Source: Paenibacillaceae bacterium (lineage in GTDB: Bacteria; Bacillota; Bacilli; Paenibacillales; CANHGK01). Taken from it: a stretch of DNA of 64,000 bases. The stretch is from NCBI GenBank assembly GCA_947460235.1, contig CANHGK010000012.1, positions 1 through 64,000 of the forward strand, read 5' to 3'. Below the pieces are notes generated by a model. It did not search any database. It was not told where the DNA came from and worked only from the letters and a program-made list of their open reading frames with translations. The first letter of the stretch is position 1. Each line of letters opens with the position of its first letter. Below, piece by piece: positions 11,625-42,059 of this stretch. The translations under genes and the position numbers were made by a program.

Positions 11625-12260
11625 ATGGCTCACCGTCTAGCCACCGAGTACACCCAATCACGTCTGGTATTATCTGAGCAAGATCTCCAGAAAGTTTGTG
11701 GCATTTTTATGTCGCATCAAATTTCTGTGGAACGTTCTGGTGATGATGTCGGATGGTGCGTGTTAAGGTTAGAGAAAGAGCAAGAAGTCGTATTGTTGGC
11801 ATTTGAGAACCGTCAAAGTCAGTATGTATTCGAAGGTACATTCCGAGTTAAACAGCGTGATTTGGTGAATGCAATGCGTGAAGTTGTTGCGACATTCAAA
11901 GGTCATGCGATTGTGAATCGGATTTATCAACAGTTTACGATCTCCTATTATTACGAACACGGTACTGTTACAAAAATTGTAGAGTCCAATGATGATGTAC
12001 AATCCATGATTTTCGAGAAAAAGCATCAACATGGGGAATTCGTAAACGAAACAAGAAAAACGGCAACTCAAGAACGTCTGCAAACTGTTTTTGAACGCAA
12101 TGATGTTGAACTTCGTATCGCCGAATTGAAAAAACAAATTGATGAATGGTTAGACATTCGTAATCGATTGAAGATTTCTGTAATTCCCGATCAAATTCAT
12201 GCAATTGATCGCCGTTTAATTAAACTAACTAGCGAATTAATCATTTCTGAAGCTATTTAA
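11625..12260 (+). CDS. Conserved hypothetical protein with a coiled-coil C terminus
   Basis: I do not recognise this 211-residue protein. It is soluble with no signal peptide. The first part (to about residue 140) looks mixed alpha/beta with two Cys-free beta-rich stretches around FEGTFRVKQRDLVNAMREVV and FTISYYYEHGTVTKIV. From about 145 on it is charged and likely a helical coiled coil (ERLQTVFERNDVELRIAELKKQIDEWL). GAGGAG sits 8 bases before ATG. It has its own extended -10 promoter and a terminator, so it is monocistronic, between engB and speD. The clean start, good codon usage and flanking signals make it a real gene. Confidence 0.8.
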   Translation: MAHRLATEYTQSRLVLSEQDLQKVCGIFMSHQISVERSGDDVGWCVLRLEKEQEVVLLAFENRQSQYVFEGTFRVKQRDLVNAMREVVATFKGHAIVNRIYQQFTISYYYEHGTVTKIVESNDDVQSMIFEKKHQHGEFVNETRKTATQERLQTVFERNDVELRIAELKKQIDEWLDIRNRLKISVIPDQIHAIDRRLIKLTSELIISEAI

Positions 12261-12323
12261 GCGCAGATTTCGACAAAAAACGTACGTTTACATTGTAAAA
12301 TGTATTTAATATTTGCATTTTAA

Positions 12324-12356
12324 CGGGCTTTCTTCGGAAAGCTCGTATTTATTTTT
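12324..12356 (+). terminator. Terminator after the 211-residue gene
   Basis: CGGGCTTTC and GAAAGCTCG pair around a stable TTCG tetraloop, followed by TATTTATTTTT. Confidence 0.8.
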
Positions 12357-12430
12357 AAAAACATATTGCATTTCATCTTCAAGGGTGTTACTTTTGTTTT
12401 TGTCACCAAAAAGAGCTTTAGCGCGTGACG

Positions 12431-12540
12431 AACTACATTAGGAACCAGGATTCACTCAATCAGGATTTAATTAATCCCTCAAAAAGTGAATGACGTAGGT
12501 CCTAGCGAATGAAACGAAACATTTTATTCCTAGGAAGGGG
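12431..12540 (+). promoter_or_regulatory. Structured leader of speD with competing stems
   Basis: Three nested helices can form: TTAGGA(A)CC (12438-12446) with GGTCCTAG (12498-12505), ATTCACT (12450-12456) with AGTGAAT (12485-12491), and GGATT (12463-12467) with AATCC (12473-12477). The segment TCCTAG (12500-12505) can instead pair with CTAGGA (12530-12535), which runs into the GGAAGGGGG ribosome site of speD. The outer helix and the ribosome-site helix therefore exclude each other. This layout suggests translational control. I do not match it to a known riboswitch class. Confidence 0.5.
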
Positions 12541-12548
12541 GAACGAGA

Positions 12549-12950
12549 GTGGGATATTCAACTTTCGGGAGACACGTTACTTTGGATGCATGGGGTGTCC
12601 AATTTGATTTAATCAACAATGAGGCATGGCTTACATGTCAAATGATTGAGGCTGCAGAATTTTGTGGCGCTACGATTCTATCCGTACAGTCGAAACAGTT
12701 TCAACCTCAAGGAGCCACGATTTTAGTTATGCTTGCTGAGAGTCATCTTTCGATTCACACCTATCCAGAACGAGGATTTGCAGCAATTGATTGTTACACT
12801 TGCGGTGATTCGGTTGACCCTCAAATGGCAGTTGAATATCTTGTTCGTGTTTTGAATCCAGAGAGAATTAATATTAAAAAATTGATACGTGGAGTTGGCG
12901 AAATCTTGGTAGAAACACCTGAGATTGCAACGTTGCTCACTGTAAAATAA
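12549..12950 (+). CDS. speD: S-adenosylmethionine decarboxylase proenzyme (bacterial SpeD)
   Basis: SpeD produces decarboxylated SAM, the aminopropyl donor for spermidine synthesis. It self-cleaves before Ser65, which becomes the pyruvoyl group. The residues ESHLSIHTYPE (64-74) hold Ser65 and His70, and Cys85 (CYTCGD) is the third processing residue; these match the 63/68/83 pattern of the Thermotoga enzyme shifted by two. The product is 133 residues with a GTG start at 12549 preceded by GGAAGGGGG. No spermidine synthase gene lies nearby. A structured leader precedes it and a strong terminator follows. Confidence 0.97.
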   Translation: MGYSTFGRHVTLDAWGVQFDLINNEAWLTCQMIEAAEFCGATILSVQSKQFQPQGATILVMLAESHLSIHTYPERGFAAIDCYTCGDSVDPQMAVEYLVRVLNPERINIKKLIRGVGEILVETPEIATLLTVK

Positions 12951-13085: not shown

Positions 13086-14414
13086 ATGAATATTATCGTG
13101 ATTGGCATTAATTTTAGAACGGCACCAATAGCAATTCGCGAACAATTTACGTTCCGTGAAGATGAAGTTTCCAATGTTCTTTCTCACATCAAAAAAACTA
13201 AGCGAGTGCTTGAAACCGTTCTGCTTGCGACCTGTAATCGGACAGAAATCTATGTGTTAACGGATCATATGCCTGCAGCGCGTGAACATTTGAAAACATT
13301 TTTAAGTAACAGGTTTGGCGTTTCAAACCAAGAATTACATGAATATTTATATATCCTTGAAGGTCGAGATGCATTACTGCATCTGTTCCGTGTAACCAGT
13401 GGATTGGATTCTATGGTACTCGGCGAAACGCAAATTTTGGGTCAAGTTCGCAGCGCTTTTTTAACCGCTCAACTTGAAGGTGCGACCGGCACATGGTTTA
13501 ATCGATTGTTCAAACAAGCGATTACGTTGGCGAAAAGGATTCATACAGAAACAGAACTTGGTGAACATCCCGTATCCGTGAGTTATGCTGCGCTCGATGT
13601 CGGCAAACGAATGTTTGGTTCGTTGCAAGATAAATCGGTATTGATATTAGGTGCCGGGAAAATGGGTGTTTTAACCGCGAAACATTTACAAAGTGAAGGC
13701 GTTAAGCAAATCCTTGTATCGAATCGTACGTCAGATCGTGCAACGGAACTTGCGCAATTATTTGATGGAATTCCTGTGGAATGGGATCAACGCGTTAATG
13801 CATTGAAGTATGTAGATATCGTTGTATCATCAACAGGTGCTTCTGAATGGGTATTAACAAAAAAACATTTGGAAGATGCAATGAATAAGCGTAATCATCG
13901 ACCAATTTATTTAATTGATATTGCAATGCCAAGAGATATTGATCCTACCGTTACTGAAGTCTCGGAGGTTAAACTGATTGATTTGGATTCATTGTCTGCA
14001 TCAATTGAATCCAATCTTTCAATCCGTGAGCATATTGCTGCGCGTTTAGACGGATGGTTGAATGACGAAATTTGTGAATTCGAACAATGGATCGCATTGC
14101 AGGGAGTCGTTCCGCTCATTCAAGCCCTACAGGAAAAATCGAATGAAATTCATCAAGAAATGATGGAAAGTTTAACTGCGAAGTTACCAGATTTATCAAT
14201 TCGCGAAGTTAAAATTATTCGTAAATTATCGAAAAGTGTTGCCAATCAAATTTTGCGTGAACCGATCTTGCGACTGAAAGAGTCATCGGGAGATGCAAAT
14301 GCAACAACACTCAAAATAGCGTTTGAATCGTTGTTTGGACTCGAAGAACGCGTTACACAAATTAATAAACGTCAAGTAATACATGTTTCTGAACTTGAGC
14401 AATGTATTGAATAA
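13086..14414 (+). CDS. hemA: Glutamyl-tRNA reductase
   Basis: This is the first enzyme of the C5 haem pathway, reducing glutamyl-tRNA to glutamate-1-semialdehyde with NADPH. The catalytic Cys50 sits in LLATCNRTE. The GETQILGQVR and LGEHPVSVSYAA signatures follow, and the NADPH-binding domain has LILGAGKMG. The C-terminal dimerisation helix bundle is complete at 442 residues. AGAGGAGGGC precedes the ATG. It leads the haem gene run, but a terminator-like hairpin separates it from the next gene, so either read-through or a second promoter is needed. Confidence 0.98.
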   Translation: MNIIVIGINFRTAPIAIREQFTFREDEVSNVLSHIKKTKRVLETVLLATCNRTEIYVLTDHMPAAREHLKTFLSNRFGVSNQELHEYLYILEGRDALLHLFRVTSGLDSMVLGETQILGQVRSAFLTAQLEGATGTWFNRLFKQAITLAKRIHTETELGEHPVSVSYAALDVGKRMFGSLQDKSVLILGAGKMGVLTAKHLQSEGVKQILVSNRTSDRATELAQLFDGIPVEWDQRVNALKYVDIVVSSTGASEWVLTKKHLEDAMNKRNHRPIYLIDIAMPRDIDPTVTEVSEVKLIDLDSLSASIESNLSIREHIAARLDGWLNDEICEFEQWIALQGVVPLIQALQEKSNEIHQEMMESLTAKLPDLSIREVKIIRKLSKSVANQILREPILRLKESSGDANATTLKIAFESLFGLEERVTQINKRQVIHVSELEQCIE

Positions 14415-14448
14415 ATTAAAATAACATGTTTTAAAGTTAATAGTGTGA

Positions 14449-14484
14449 GGATGGTTTGTTTTTAACAAACGATCCTTTTTTTTT
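14449..14484 (+). terminator. Terminator-like hairpin after hemA
   Basis: GGATGGTTTGTT and AACAAACGATCC pair around TTT and are followed by eight Ts. It lies between hemA and the rest of the haem genes and would lower downstream expression. Confidence 0.8.
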
Positions 14485-14599
14485 ACTAAATATTGATTTG
14501 ATTTCTGTTTTACAAAGGACAATGTCTACAGATAACGAATATATAAAAGGTTAATTTGTGATTCACACCAAGAGATAGATAACAGGGTAGGTGGCATTT

Positions 14600-15418
14600 A
14601 TGTCAGAGGGGTTGGCCGTCAATTTGAAATTGAACGGCCGAAATGTAGTGGTGTTTGGCGGAGGGGCTGTTGCCGCTCGGAAAATTCCGTTATTATTGCG
14701 TGCCGAAGCAATCGTACATGTAATCAGTCCTACCATTTGTGACTCTATTAAACGATTAGCAAAAAAACATGTAGTACATTGGATTTCGAAATCTGCGGAA
14801 CAATTTTTGAAACAACCTGATGCGTTTTGGCACCATGCAATTTTGGTTGTCATGACAACTGATGATTATCATACACATGATATAATACGTGAACATGCCA
14901 TGCATATTCCGCTTCAACTTGATGCTGGGAGAGCAGATCAAGGTAATGTTTCATTACCTGCACTATGGCAAACTGAAGGACTTACGGTGGCATTTTCCAC
15001 GAATGGAATTAGTCCTGGTTTGGCCAAAATGGCGCGTGAGCAATGGACCGAATGGTTCACACAATTTTATGGAAACCGGTTTGGATGTTATACTCGGATT
15101 GTCGAAATGTTACGTAAGCAATTCAAGCACCATGTCGAAGATGCTCAATTACGTCAATCGCTCAATCGGGTGTTGACCGATCCAAATCAATTTTTGGATT
15201 TTCAATTGGCTTGTGCTCATTTGGATGACCCGCAAGACATTGTTGATCAAATGATGCGCTCTTTTATGATTGAAATGGGACTTGACCATGAGATAACGAT
15301 AGAAAAATCCGCTCATACTGAAGTGCAGGAGCGGGAGGAGAACGAGGTTCATGCAAACGATCAAAGTAGGAACGAGATCGAGTTTGTTAGCTCGAACGCA
15401 AACGGAACAAACAATTGA
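14600..15418 (+). CDS. Precorrin-2 dehydrogenase / siroheme synthase (Met8/CysG-N type)
   Basis: It oxidises precorrin-2 to sirohydrochlorin with NAD and may insert iron, leading to sirohaem. The N-terminal Rossmann motif VVVFGGGAVAARK lies near residue 20. The characteristic AFSTNGISPGLAK segment is present, followed by a helical C-terminal domain. The protein is 272 residues from ATG 14600 (GGTAGGTGG upstream); GTG 14591 is a weaker alternative. It takes the place of hemX after hemA. Its last 68 bases overlap the start of hemC, and those codons give a charged, low-complexity tail. Methylase activity would come from the CobA domain two genes on. Confidence 0.92.
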   Translation: MSEGLAVNLKLNGRNVVVFGGGAVAARKIPLLLRAEAIVHVISPTICDSIKRLAKKHVVHWISKSAEQFLKQPDAFWHHAILVVMTTDDYHTHDIIREHAMHIPLQLDAGRADQGNVSLPALWQTEGLTVAFSTNGISPGLAKMAREQWTEWFTQFYGNRFGCYTRIVEMLRKQFKHHVEDAQLRQSLNRVLTDPNQFLDFQLACAHLDDPQDIVDQMMRSFMIEMGLDHEITIEKSAHTEVQEREENEVHANDQSRNEIEFVSSNANGTNN

Positions 15419-16325
15419 ACGACTTCGAGAACTTGTCAAAGAACAGATGTTAGATGTCACGTTTGAGACGGTATTCATTCAAACGACTGGTGATCGAGTT
15501 CTTGACGTTAGTCTCTCTAAGGTTGGCGGAAAAGGACTTTTTACGAAAGAAATTGAGCAGGCATTAGCAGATGGCGCAATCGATGTGGCTGTTCATAGCA
15601 TGAAAGATGTTCCGTTCGAAATGGACGACCTATTTTGCATTGCAGCGATTCCGATACGTGAAGATGCACGCGATGCATGGTTAAGTACGAAATTCGAGTC
15701 ATGGGATGATTTGGACTCAAATGCAGTTGTTGGTACGAGTAGTTTGCGTAGAAGTGCATCACTGAAATCCGCGAAACCATCAATTACAATAAAAATGCTT
15801 CGCGGTAATGTCGATACTCGTTATCAGAAAATGGTACAAGGTGATTACGATGGAATTATATTAGCCGCAGCTGGGTTACACCGACTTGGCTGGAAAGATC
15901 GAATTCGGTCGTATGTTCCAATCGACAACTGTTTGCCGGCAGTTGGTCAAGGTGCTCTGGCACTGCAATGTCGCAGCGATGATCGGCAAGTAATTGACGT
16001 TATTTCCCTAATTCATGATTCTCAAACTGGATTCGCGGTTCAAGCAGAACGGGCCTTTTTGAGAATGTTGGAAGGTAGCTGTCAGGTTCCAATCGGTGGG
16101 TATGCCGCGTGGTCTGAAAATGAATTGCTGTTAAATGGGATGATTGCGATGTCCGATGGTTCAAATGTATTACGGGGTTCTCGTCGATTTGTTCGAAAAA
16201 ATGAACATTCAAATCTTGATATAGAACAACAAGTCATCCTAATGGGCGAGGAATTAGCGGCTGAATTACGCAATCACGACCAAGGGTCAGTATGGAATGC
16301 GATACGGGGAGTGAACGTGGAATGA
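15351..16325 (+). CDS. hemC: Porphobilinogen deaminase (hydroxymethylbilane synthase)
   Basis: It links four porphobilinogens into hydroxymethylbilane. The N terminus IKVGTRSSLLARTQT is the family signature, with the substrate-binding KGLFTKEIEQAL and HSMKDVP. Cys244 in EGSCQVPIGGYA anchors the dipyrromethane cofactor. The 324 residues are normal length. GGGAGGAG lies upstream, inside the preceding gene, which it overlaps by 68 bases. Its stop overlaps the start of the next gene by 4 bases, so the two are translationally coupled. Confidence 0.98.
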   Translation: MQTIKVGTRSSLLARTQTEQTIERLRELVKEQMLDVTFETVFIQTTGDRVLDVSLSKVGGKGLFTKEIEQALADGAIDVAVHSMKDVPFEMDDLFCIAAIPIREDARDAWLSTKFESWDDLDSNAVVGTSSLRRSASLKSAKPSITIKMLRGNVDTRYQKMVQGDYDGIILAAAGLHRLGWKDRIRSYVPIDNCLPAVGQGALALQCRSDDRQVIDVISLIHDSQTGFAVQAERAFLRMLEGSCQVPIGGYAAWSENELLLNGMIAMSDGSNVLRGSRRFVRKNEHSNLDIEQQVILMGEELAAELRNHDQGSVWNAIRGVNVE

Positions 16326-17866
16326 ATGCAAAGGGACATGTATATTTAGTTGGTGCAGGACCTGGCGATCCCAAGTTAATTACAATCCGTGGCCGCGAAG
16401 CGATTGAGCGAGCGGATGTGCTTGTGTATGACCGTTTAGCAAATCCTAGATTATTACAATGGGCAAAACCGAACACAAAGAAAATTTACGTTGGGAAATT
16501 ACCCGATCGACATACACTGAAACAACATGAAATTAATCAACTGCTTATTGATCTTGCACTTGAAGGGCATATAGTCACCCGGTTAAAAGGCGGAGATCCA
16601 AGTGTATTTGGCCGAGTCGGGGAAGAAGCGGAAGCGTTAGTCGCGAATGGAATTCGTTTTGATATGATTCCAGGTGTGACATCCTCAATTGCGGTTCCCC
16701 TATATGCAGGGATACCTGTAACGCACCGAGATTTTACATCTTCGCTTGCGATTGTGACAGGACATGAATGTACGAAGAAAGAAGATTCGTCTCTTGATTG
16801 GGAAAAGCTTGCGCAAGCAACGGGTACGATGGTATTTCTAATGGGTGTGAAAAACGTATCGTACTTATGTTCGAATATGATTCGATATGGGAGATCGGAA
16901 ACGACACCGGTTGCTGTTGTGCAATGGGGAACGAGTGCGTTCCAGCGAACGATCATCGGAAATTTGCAAACGATTGAACAGGACATTAAAGAATCGGGCA
17001 TTACATCTCCTGCAGTTATCGTTGTTGGTGAAGTTGTAAACCTTCGTAACACATTGAATTGGTTTGAAACAAAGCCGTTATTCGGTAAACGAATTGTCGT
17101 CACAAGAGCGAGAGCACAATCCAGTTCTTTGGTGGATCACATAGACTTGCTTGGCGGAGAAGCGATCGAATTGCCGGTCATTGAAGTGACTGATTCGGAT
17201 CAAGGTTTCGATTTGTCGGAACCTGAGAAGTTTAATTGGATTGTATTTACGAGCGTAAATGCAGTTGAACATTTTTTTAAAGCCATTCGATTATTAAATG
17301 TCGATGCGCGTCGTTTCGCAAAAGCAAGGATTGCTGCGATTGGACAAGCAACCGCTGATGCACTTGCTTCTTTTGGGTGGTTGTCAGAAGTTTGTCCAGG
17401 TCAACAGGATCGTGATGGACTTTTGCAAGCTTTGCAACAGCAAATTCAACCAGGATCAAATATACTTTTGCCTAGAGGGAATTTAGCGAGCAATTGGTTG
17501 CCTGATCGATTACAAGAATTTGGAGCAAACATCCAAAACTGGACGGTGTATTCAACAAAACCCGTTACGGAAGAAGAATCTATGGCAGATATCATTCAAG
17601 AATTGCGAGTTGGTAGAATTAACGCGATTACATTTACTTCGTCCTCAACAGTACAACATTTTATTGAACCACTGAAACGACTTTTAGGGGATGAGGTTCA
17701 AACATTGCTCACCGATATCCCTTTTGTTTGTATCGGGCCACAAACGGCTGAAACAGCGATAACTTATGGATTTGGCGTGATCCATACAGCAAATTCAACG
17801 GGGATTGATGGACTTATTGAAAAACTGTTAGAGGTGATGTTAAATCGTGCGGAAGGAGAGAAATAG
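16322..17866 (+). CDS. cobA-hemD: Fused uroporphyrinogen-III C-methyltransferase and uroporphyrinogen-III synthase
   Basis: Two enzymes share one chain. Residues 1-245 form a SAM-dependent uroporphyrinogen-III methyltransferase ([35 protein letters not shown]) that makes precorrin-2. Residues from about 250 form uroporphyrinogen-III synthase ([38 protein letters not shown]), which closes hydroxymethylbilane to uroporphyrinogen III. The start ATG 16322 overlaps the hemC stop as ATGA, with GGGGAGTG before it; an upstream ATG at 16292 lies inside hemC. This fusion occurs in several Paenibacillus- and Clostridia-like Bacillota, while B. subtilis has a stand-alone HemD. It supplies the substrate of the siroheme gene in the same operon. 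Confidence 0.96.
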
Positions 17867-17868
17867 CA

Positions 17869-18864
17869 ATGAGTTTTCCGATTCAACGAAACCGTAGATT
17901 GCGTAAATCGGGAGCGATCCGTGCGATGGTGCGTGAAACGGTATTATCGGTTTCTGATTTTATTTATCCTTTATTTGTCGTGGAAGGTTCAAATCGAAAA
18001 GATGAAATTTCTTCGATGCCTGATGTTTTTCATTTTTCATTGGATGTTCTACAGACTGAGATTCAAGAGATTGTTGAACTTGGCATTCGCAGTGTGATTG
18101 TATTTGGTGTTCCAAACGATAAAGATCCACATGGTCATGAGGCGTATCACAACAAGGGAATTGTTCAACGGGCAATAAGACAAATTAAACAATGGGCTCC
18201 AGAATTATGTGTAATTGCAGATACATGTTTATGTCAATTTACGGACCATGGCCATTGCGGAATTGTGCAAGATGGCGATGCCTTCGTCGATAATGATGCA
18301 ACGTTACCGTTATTGGCGCAAACGGCGGTATCTCAAGCAAAAGCAGGCGCGGATATCATCGCACCATCGAATATGATGGATGGTTTTGTTGGCGCTATTC
18401 GAAATGCGCTAGATATTCACGGCTTTGAACATATACCGATTATGTCTTATGCGGTGAAATATGCATCGGCGTTTTACGGTCCATTCCGCGACGCTGCGCA
18501 TTCGACTCCGCAATTCGGTGACCGCAGAACATATCAAATGGATCCCGCAAATGCACGTGAAGCGCTGCGTGAAGCGCAAAATGATGTGGATGAAGGTGCG
18601 GATTTTTTGATGGTCAAACCAGCACTTGCGTACTTGGATATTATTCGAATGTTACGAGATCGATTTGATTTACCATTAGTTGCGTATCATGTGAGTGCGG
18701 AATATTCGATGATTAAAGCTGCCGCGCAAAATGGATGGATCAACGAAAAGTTAGTAACCATCGAAACTCATCTTGGAATGAAACGTGCCGGTGTTGATTT
18801 GATCATTACCTACTCTGCAAAAACAATGGCAAAATGGCTGCGTGAAGGGGGATTTTCGCAATGA
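17869..18864 (+). CDS. hemB: Delta-aminolevulinic acid dehydratase (porphobilinogen synthase)
   Basis: It condenses two 5-aminolevulinates to porphobilinogen. The metal-site loop [14 protein letters not shown] is rich in Cys, indicating a zinc-type enzyme. The Schiff-base lysine is Lys250 ([10 protein letters not shown]), and a second active-site lysine lies in [17 protein letters not shown]. The 331 residues are standard. GGAAGGAG precedes the start, which lies two bases after the previous stop. Its stop overlaps the start of hemL by 4 bases. Confidence 0.98.
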
Positions 18865-41954: not shown

Positions 41955-42059
41955 TAGTGTGCAATGCACGCTGTAACCGCACATCAATGGTTATTAAGTG
42001 TTGTCCTTTGTGGATGACCACCTAACATGGCGAGTCTGAGTAGATGAGGAGGTGCACAT
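41955..42059 (+). ncRNA. Ribosomal protein L21 leader (autoregulatory 5' UTR)
   Basis: The roughly 105-base leader folds into successive hairpins: AGTGTGC/GCACGCT (41956-41972), AACC/GGTT (41975-41992) and GTTGTCC/GGATGAC (around 42000-42017). Position directly before rplU and size match the Rfam L21 leader found in Bacillota, which is thought to bind L21. I have not compared it with the covariance model. Confidence 0.75.

Follow-up and report, generated by a model that had tools for sequence, protein, structure and literature searches.

The speD gene of a Paenibacillaceae bacterium is preceded by a conserved leader RNA in which a single strand can pair with either of two partners, the second of which runs into the SD sequence. 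On comparative grounds, this leader is a strong candidate for a new metabolite-sensing switch, and it belongs to no family of Rfam 15. We describe it in the window, by which we mean the whole analysed stretch of 64,000 nucleotides.

The speD gene starts with a GTG at 12549, and its open reading frame (12549-12950, + strand) encodes an S-adenosylmethionine decarboxylase of 133 amino acids, which matches PF02675 (AdoMet_dc) at an E-value of 3.2e-34 and TIGR03330 (SAM_DCase_Bsu) above the cut-off. A terminator scan of the locus identified one intrinsic terminator belonging to the upstream gene and one after speD, and as these flank the leader and speD, the two form a single isolated unit. A third terminator-like site (12582-12602) lies within the speD coding sequence, and the scan found no intrinsic terminator between the promoter and speD. 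The probable promoter consists of TTGCAT, 17 nt and TACTTT, a spacing that fits an extended -10 promoter. A plain consensus promoter scan did not call these boxes, TACTTT being a poor -10, and by eye the alignment has TTGCAT-N17-TATTTT with a preceding TGn repeated upstream of the leaders of relatives. The only conserved promoter-like boxes are these (12366-12394), and they lie upstream of the structure, so that the threat recognised in the original prediction, a promoter downstream of it, did not materialise. We infer a transcript start at about 12401-12405, and the leader and speD most likely share one short transcript. Directly downstream of speD lies a haem/sirohaem gene cluster (13086-18864), with ORFs that we take from their translations to be hemA-like and then hemC-, hemD- and hemB-like. 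Elsewhere in the window, a ribosomal protein L21 leader, a known Rfam family, was found at 41965-42047 (53.5 bits). The features of the locus are as follows.

12323-12346, + strand: intrinsic terminator of the upstream gene (ORF 11625-12260), from the terminator scan
12366-12394, + strand: probable promoter, TTGCAT at 12366-12371 and extended -10 TGTTACTTT at 12386-12394, from the alignment of relatives
12402-12429, + strand: 5' hairpin GUCAC/GUGAC, from folding; this genome only, missing from the aligned relatives
12439-12446, + strand: P1 5' arm UAGGAACC (UAGGAaCC), from comparison and the swap test
12447-12449, + strand: P1/P2 internal loop, 5' side, AGG, conserved in the leader comparison
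12450-12456, + strand: P2 5' arm AUUCACU, from covariation
12462-12479, + strand: apical hairpin P3, AGGAUU/AAUCCCU, from folding and alignment
12485-12491, + strand: P2 3' arm AGUGAAU, from covariation
12492-12497, + strand: P1/P2 internal loop, 3' side, GACGUA, conserved in the leader comparison
12498-12505, + strand: shared arm GGUCCUAG, either the P1 3' arm or the 5' arm of the anti-P1 hairpin, from the swap test and folding
12507-12529, + strand: distal stem of the platform hairpin, GAAUGAAA/UUUUAUUC, from covariation and from 59 of 59 distinct segments
12530-12535, + strand: competitor CUAGGA, the 3' arm of the anti-P1 hairpin, from the swap test and folding
12531-12541, + strand: extended SD UAGGAAGGGGG with the core AAGGGGG at 12535-12541, from anti-SD complementarity
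12544-12567, + strand: start-codon hairpin, CGAGAG (12544-12549) with CUUUCG (12562-12567), from leader scoring
12549-12950, + strand: speD, from PF02675 and TIGR03330
12959-12994, + strand: intrinsic terminator after speD, from the terminator scan

The central claim of the original prediction, that TCCTAG at 12500-12505 pairs either with TTAGGA at 12438-12443 or with CTAGGA at 12530-12535, proved exact to the base, and the three-helix structure it had drawn corresponds to P1, P2 and the apical hairpin P3. In the P1 pairing, UAGGAaCC (12439-12446) pairs with GGUCCUA (12498-12504). The P3 stretch, which includes the stem GGAUU/AAUCC, is the variable inner part of the leader, and its place is occupied by a second module in other families. 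In the other pairing, UCCUAG (12500-12505) pairs with CUAGGA (12530-12535) and the helix continues into the distal stem of the platform, giving a hairpin of 14 pairs. As had also been claimed, CUAGGA is joined directly to the ribosome site: it runs into the SD. The UAGGAA of the P1 5' arm repeats the first six bases of the SD. The anti-P1 hairpin engages the first five bases of the eleven-base SD, of whose core AAGGGGG a single base is lost to it. The sequence GGAAGGGGG lies ahead of the GTG with confirmed coordinates (12533-12541), and the extended SD UAGGAAGGGGG pairs, two G.U pairs included, with CCUCCUUUCUA, the end of GGATCACCTCCTTTCTA. The GGATCACCTCCTTTCTA pattern, located by sequence match alone, has five and one copies in two complete genomes of the order; a search for 16S rRNA in the draft genome to which the window belongs (2.72 Mb, listed as 99% complete) gave no match. 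Beyond the SD, bases before the start pair with codons 5-7 in the start-codon hairpin, and the start codon begins at the final base of its 5' arm. Across 69 leaders this hairpin has a mean of 6.5 contiguous pairs, compared with 3.6 for shuffled 5' arms. The start-codon hairpin is common to the leaders of STFGRH-type SpeD.

Folding of the single sequence gives a weak signal, with 25 of 200 shuffles of 12400-12570 equally stable (z -1.17). We nevertheless rejected a chance fold because of the comparative evidence. An alignment of 64 leaders (A4), fitted to the model and taken from a set of 70 by omitting near-duplicates together with L077 and L078, has changes on both sides in 12 of 22 pairs. 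Its covariation score was 0.183 versus 0.083 after shuffling (0 of 500 as good), and slid partners scored at most 0.047. In the distal stem of the platform, all 8 pairs are changed on both sides in other families. A MAFFT alignment of 32 inner modules (A5) has such changes in 4 of 6 pairs of P2 and a whole-structure covariation score of 0.300, versus 0.163 for shuffled alignments (0 of 500 as good). The platform also stood out when tested without an alignment: with five outer bases fixed on each side, its inner part out-folded shuffles of the same composition in all 59 distinct segments (each p 0.05 or lower, mean z -3.7), three of the 70 leaders (L077, L090 and L078) being unparsed.

Both pairings of the shared arm were compared with swapped partners, using 54 distinct combinations from the 70 leaders, a wrongly cut shared arm of L028 among them. 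P1 arms taken from one leader fit each other better than arms exchanged between leaders (0 of 10000 permutations did as well), and the shared arm fits its own competitor better than others (again 0 of 10000), both tests being inflated by relatedness. The substitutions can be followed directly: UAGGAUC/GAUCCUA replaces UAGGAaCC/GGUCCUA in one group of families, and in L107 and L108, from another class, the three strands change jointly to UGGGA, UCCCGG and CUGGGA. At L107:1790-1971, in the vicinity of speD, there is a cobalamin riboswitch (142.8 bits). Two leaders break the CUAGGA pattern. By eye, L077, which lacks CUAGGA, apparently pairs UUCUCUU with AAGAGAG at the SD, and L078 is a divergent paralogue. 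As these alignments and swaps establish at the level of sequence, the P1 and anti-P1 pairings are both conserved and selected. The 5' leader of speD has two features by which riboswitches are recognised: it contains a conserved structured element, and two mutually exclusive conserved structures touch an expression signal, the SD, on which they would act.

Within the order, a blastn search with 12400-12570 identified the leader in 46 of 60 genomes and 24 of 27 genera, the named relatives that carry it being Paenibacillus. Conservation in relatives had been set beforehand as a test of the leader and was borne out by this search. The PF02675 search covered 13 of the 14 genomes without a blastn match and found no match in 5 and a weak one (~1e-13) in 8, so the leader is missing where speD of the window's type is missing. 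In 35 leaders (L001-L035), P1, P2 and the competitor segments are near letter-for-letter identical, and the inner loop and the platform loop differ in sequence and length. No pair is changed on both sides within the order. The helices are invariant there, which makes covariation in the order uninformative, and the covariation that had been asked of relatives was instead seen in distant families, in P2 and the platform hairpin.

We extended the search to the class with R1, a covariance model built from 29 leaders, and R3, a covariance model of the inner module nested inside the same helix. Searched at full length in 398 Bacilli genomes, R1 matched 124 genomes and 54 of 146 genera; R3 matched 232, with a single site per genome. 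Both models matched in 93 genomes and either in 263, and PF02675 was found in 292. Among these 292, an R1 or R3 match was present in 262 and missing from 30. In the sole match-bearing genome without PF02675 (G302), the match occupies bases 13-69, at the end of a contig. As R1 alone matched 31 genomes, including that of the window, and R3 alone 139, neither module is essential everywhere.

The position of the matches is constant. In 70 of 71 R1 loci examined, those of the window's order included, speD follows 6-10 nt after the motif; the other, a 14-bit second match in L081 with no ORF, was taken as chance. For all 99 R3 matches compared, the PF02675 domain is encoded on the same strand and starts 56-91 nt further downstream, the row for G079, which has no motif position, having been skipped. 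Of 20 speD genes from genomes without R1, 16 have a related leader that keeps the inner part ACUUAAAGGGUUAGGACCUCnnnGGACUAACUUUCCCCCGUGGU in a helix of varying sequence (L130 being counted via R3), and none was found upstream of speD in the other four (L114-L117). Two R1 matches per genome occur in G226, G147, G107, G069, G121, G157, G167, G177, G207 and G236 (loci L054, L056-L062 and L066-L069); where both loci were fetched, as in G226, G069 and G147, each leader precedes its own speD and the inner parts differ. The leader RNA is rare outside Bacilli. The model R2 matched 9 of 398 genomes of the phylum, of which G523, G750 and G772 belong to other classes and have speD, and R3 matched 7 of 338 genomes, of which G730 is from outside the class and has speD. 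Four other weak non-Bacilli matches, without speD (L109, L111, L113 and L152), were rejected as chance. In the sequences compared, the leader RNA accompanies speD only. The switch that the original prediction had read from one locus was sound in its conserved structured leader and exclusive pairings; it had overlooked this breadth, as well as the nested module, the start-codon hairpin and the SD copy in P1.

In other Bacilli, the second module lies within P2 and has the form UUAAAGGG...CUUUCCCCCGUG. Its CCCCC strand is the complement of GGGGG in the SD, and the AAAGGG on its opposite side is SD-like. A C-strand of CUCUCC or CUCCUC is often accompanied by an SD of AGGAGAG or AGGAGGG. Over 46 distinct pairs, a C-strand and the SD of the same leader have a mean Watson-Crick run of 5.46, versus 5.19 when swapped, with 91 of 10000 permutations as high; for nine leaders the C-strand was assigned manually, as was the SD for L121, and relatedness is uncorrected. 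This co-fit lends weak to moderate support to a pairing between the inner module and the SD, since every SD has its complement in some C-rich strand. No recognisable inner module was found in the window's order, and R3 has no match in the window's genome, where the C-strand is UCCCUC and lies in part inside P3. In the inner module at L121:542-650, the loop is about 50 nt larger and apparently stem-forming, with the conserved flanks intact.

The best reading is a translational switch, given that one strand at the SD has two conserved pairings of which only one can form at a time. We consider it probable that this conserved, cis-acting leader RNA regulates speD at the level of translation, through strand exchange, and regard it as a candidate metabolite sensor. 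UCCUAG would serve as an internal anti-SD. Paired with the upstream SD look-alike UAGGA, it would close P1 and leave the extended SD free, which would be the ON state; paired with the UAGGA that begins the real SD, it would form the long hairpin against the ribosome site, with P1 open and half of the SD hidden, which would be the OFF state. A metabolite of the pathway from SAM to spermidine may set the balance at the invariant P1/P2 internal loop (AGG/GACGUA). When each pairing was enforced in turn, all 7 leaders tested had the anti-P1 state below the P1 state, the difference being 1.5 kcal/mol for the window and 4.3-8.0 kcal/mol for the others; in L067 the unconstrained fold has another pairing, 0.2 kcal/mol below the anti-P1 state. 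Because the anti-P1 hairpin is the default by calculation, a P1-stabilising ligand would be expected to raise speD expression, which fits a substrate (SAM, putrescine) better than the end product. The predicted accessibility of the SD, however, gives no consistent direction: relative to the P1 state, the anti-P1 hairpin lowers it in 4 of 7 leaders and raises it in the other 3, which include the window. The inner module seems to repeat the device of an SD copy and an anti-SD strand. We tentatively raise a wider idea, which may well not hold: that a lineage-wide SAM/polyamine riboswitch class governs speD in most Bacilli, with two nested strand-exchange modules that each have an SD look-alike and an anti-SD strand. 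Leaders with both modules could then integrate two signals at a single ribosome site in the manner of a logic gate, one module sensing, for example, SAM or putrescine and the other spermidine.

A strong rival, which we consider possible, is that spermidine or decarboxylated SAM turns expression OFF. The product would stabilise a fold in which the inner C-rich strand sits on the SD (CCCCC:GGGGG), as in pseudoknot riboswitches, and the anti-P1 hairpin would present the SD. Biosynthetic genes are usually under feedback repression, both CCCCC and GGGGG are conserved, and variants of the C-strand are matched by variants of the SD to a degree that the 91 permutations mentioned above reach. However, that permutation ignores relatedness and any SD resembles the complement of a C-rich strand, the window's own UCCCUC is partly taken up by P3, and an OFF switch of this kind leaves the retention of UCCUAG and CUAGGA unexplained. 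Autogenous control, with the SpeD protein itself binding the leader and shifting the balance of folds, would fit a leader that is associated exclusively with speD and has near-invariant loop sequences, but the inner module is common to two divergent types of SpeD; we know of no protein-RNA control of such a kind for SpeD and think this explanation unlikely. An equally low probability attaches to a structured leader without a ligand, be it a passive initiation structure, a fold that responds to temperature or ions, or a determinant of mRNA stability: the start codon does lie in or at a conserved hairpin (6.5 versus 3.6 pairs in 69 leaders), but invariant internal loops and two conserved competing pairings exceed the needs of a passive hairpin.

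Two further explanations were rejected. The frame GTG AAT GAC GTA GGT CCT AGC GAA TGA is open and stopped in the window and could encode a leader peptide that controls speD, and a frame of 8 codons was present in 16 of 70 leaders scanned. Across families, however, the frame ranges from 3 to 42 codons or lacks a stop in the stretch, and the GTGAA start is missing in 4 of 70 leaders; on these frame lengths, with neither the frame nor its length conserved, we regard control by an upstream ORF as very improbable. Membership in the known SAM-I-variant class of spermidine riboswitches, which is found before speD, speE or ldcC, is less credible still. The target gene speD is the same (PMC10853860), but our leader has no Rfam match at all, the SAM-I covariance model included, and the terminator platform is absent, there being no terminator between promoter and speD.

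At the gathering score, a search of Rfam 15 (4227 families) gave no match for the window's leader or eight related loci, and in E-value mode nothing credible was found over the leader in the window, twenty loci and L118. The original prediction had likewise recognised no known consensus, and the covariance search agrees with it. In the open-access literature, which our search covered, we found no description of this leader RNA, and an earlier account elsewhere is possible. The accessible portions of PMC11109978, PMC8632094, PMC6429828, PMC7266159, PMC4448311, PMC5519356 and PMC10853860 contain no account of it. A 79-nt Hfq-associated RNA from the speD-gapB intergenic region of B. subtilis is listed as 'unknown or speD leader region' in a table of PMC3574147, and that entry gives no structure, conservation or function. 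The closest parallel in target is the SAM-I-variant spermidine riboswitch, which precedes speD, speE or ldcC in Bacillota, acts by transcription termination and is rare, with 13 examples in PMC10853860. Like it, the speD leader is a leader RNA before a polyamine gene and a proposed sensor of the same pathway; unlike it, the leader is common, lies at the ribosome site and differs in sequence and fold. In that 2023 paper, which deals with the one accepted spermidine riboswitch, further polyamine riboswitch classes are deemed seemingly certain to await discovery (PMC10853860).

With the leader present in 262 of 292 Bacilli genomes with AdoMet_dc and absent from Rfam 15, the idea of such a polyamine class lends itself to direct tests in laboratory strains of Paenibacillus and Bacillus. 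Few metabolites that interact with RNA are as abundant as spermidine and SAM. In the SAM-II, SAM-III (SMK) and preQ1-II riboswitches, the aptamer fold and the SD compete for one strand, and the SMK riboswitch is tied to a single gene, metK. The speD leader has no sequence or covariance-model match to these classes in Rfam; it resembles them in having one strand whose alternative partners are the putative aptamer fold and the SD. We thus describe it as a translational riboswitch-like RNA of unusual design and a putative member of the riboswitches. Its combination of an SD copy with an internal anti-SD, apparently repeated in two nested modules, would be both compact and unusual beside these systems.
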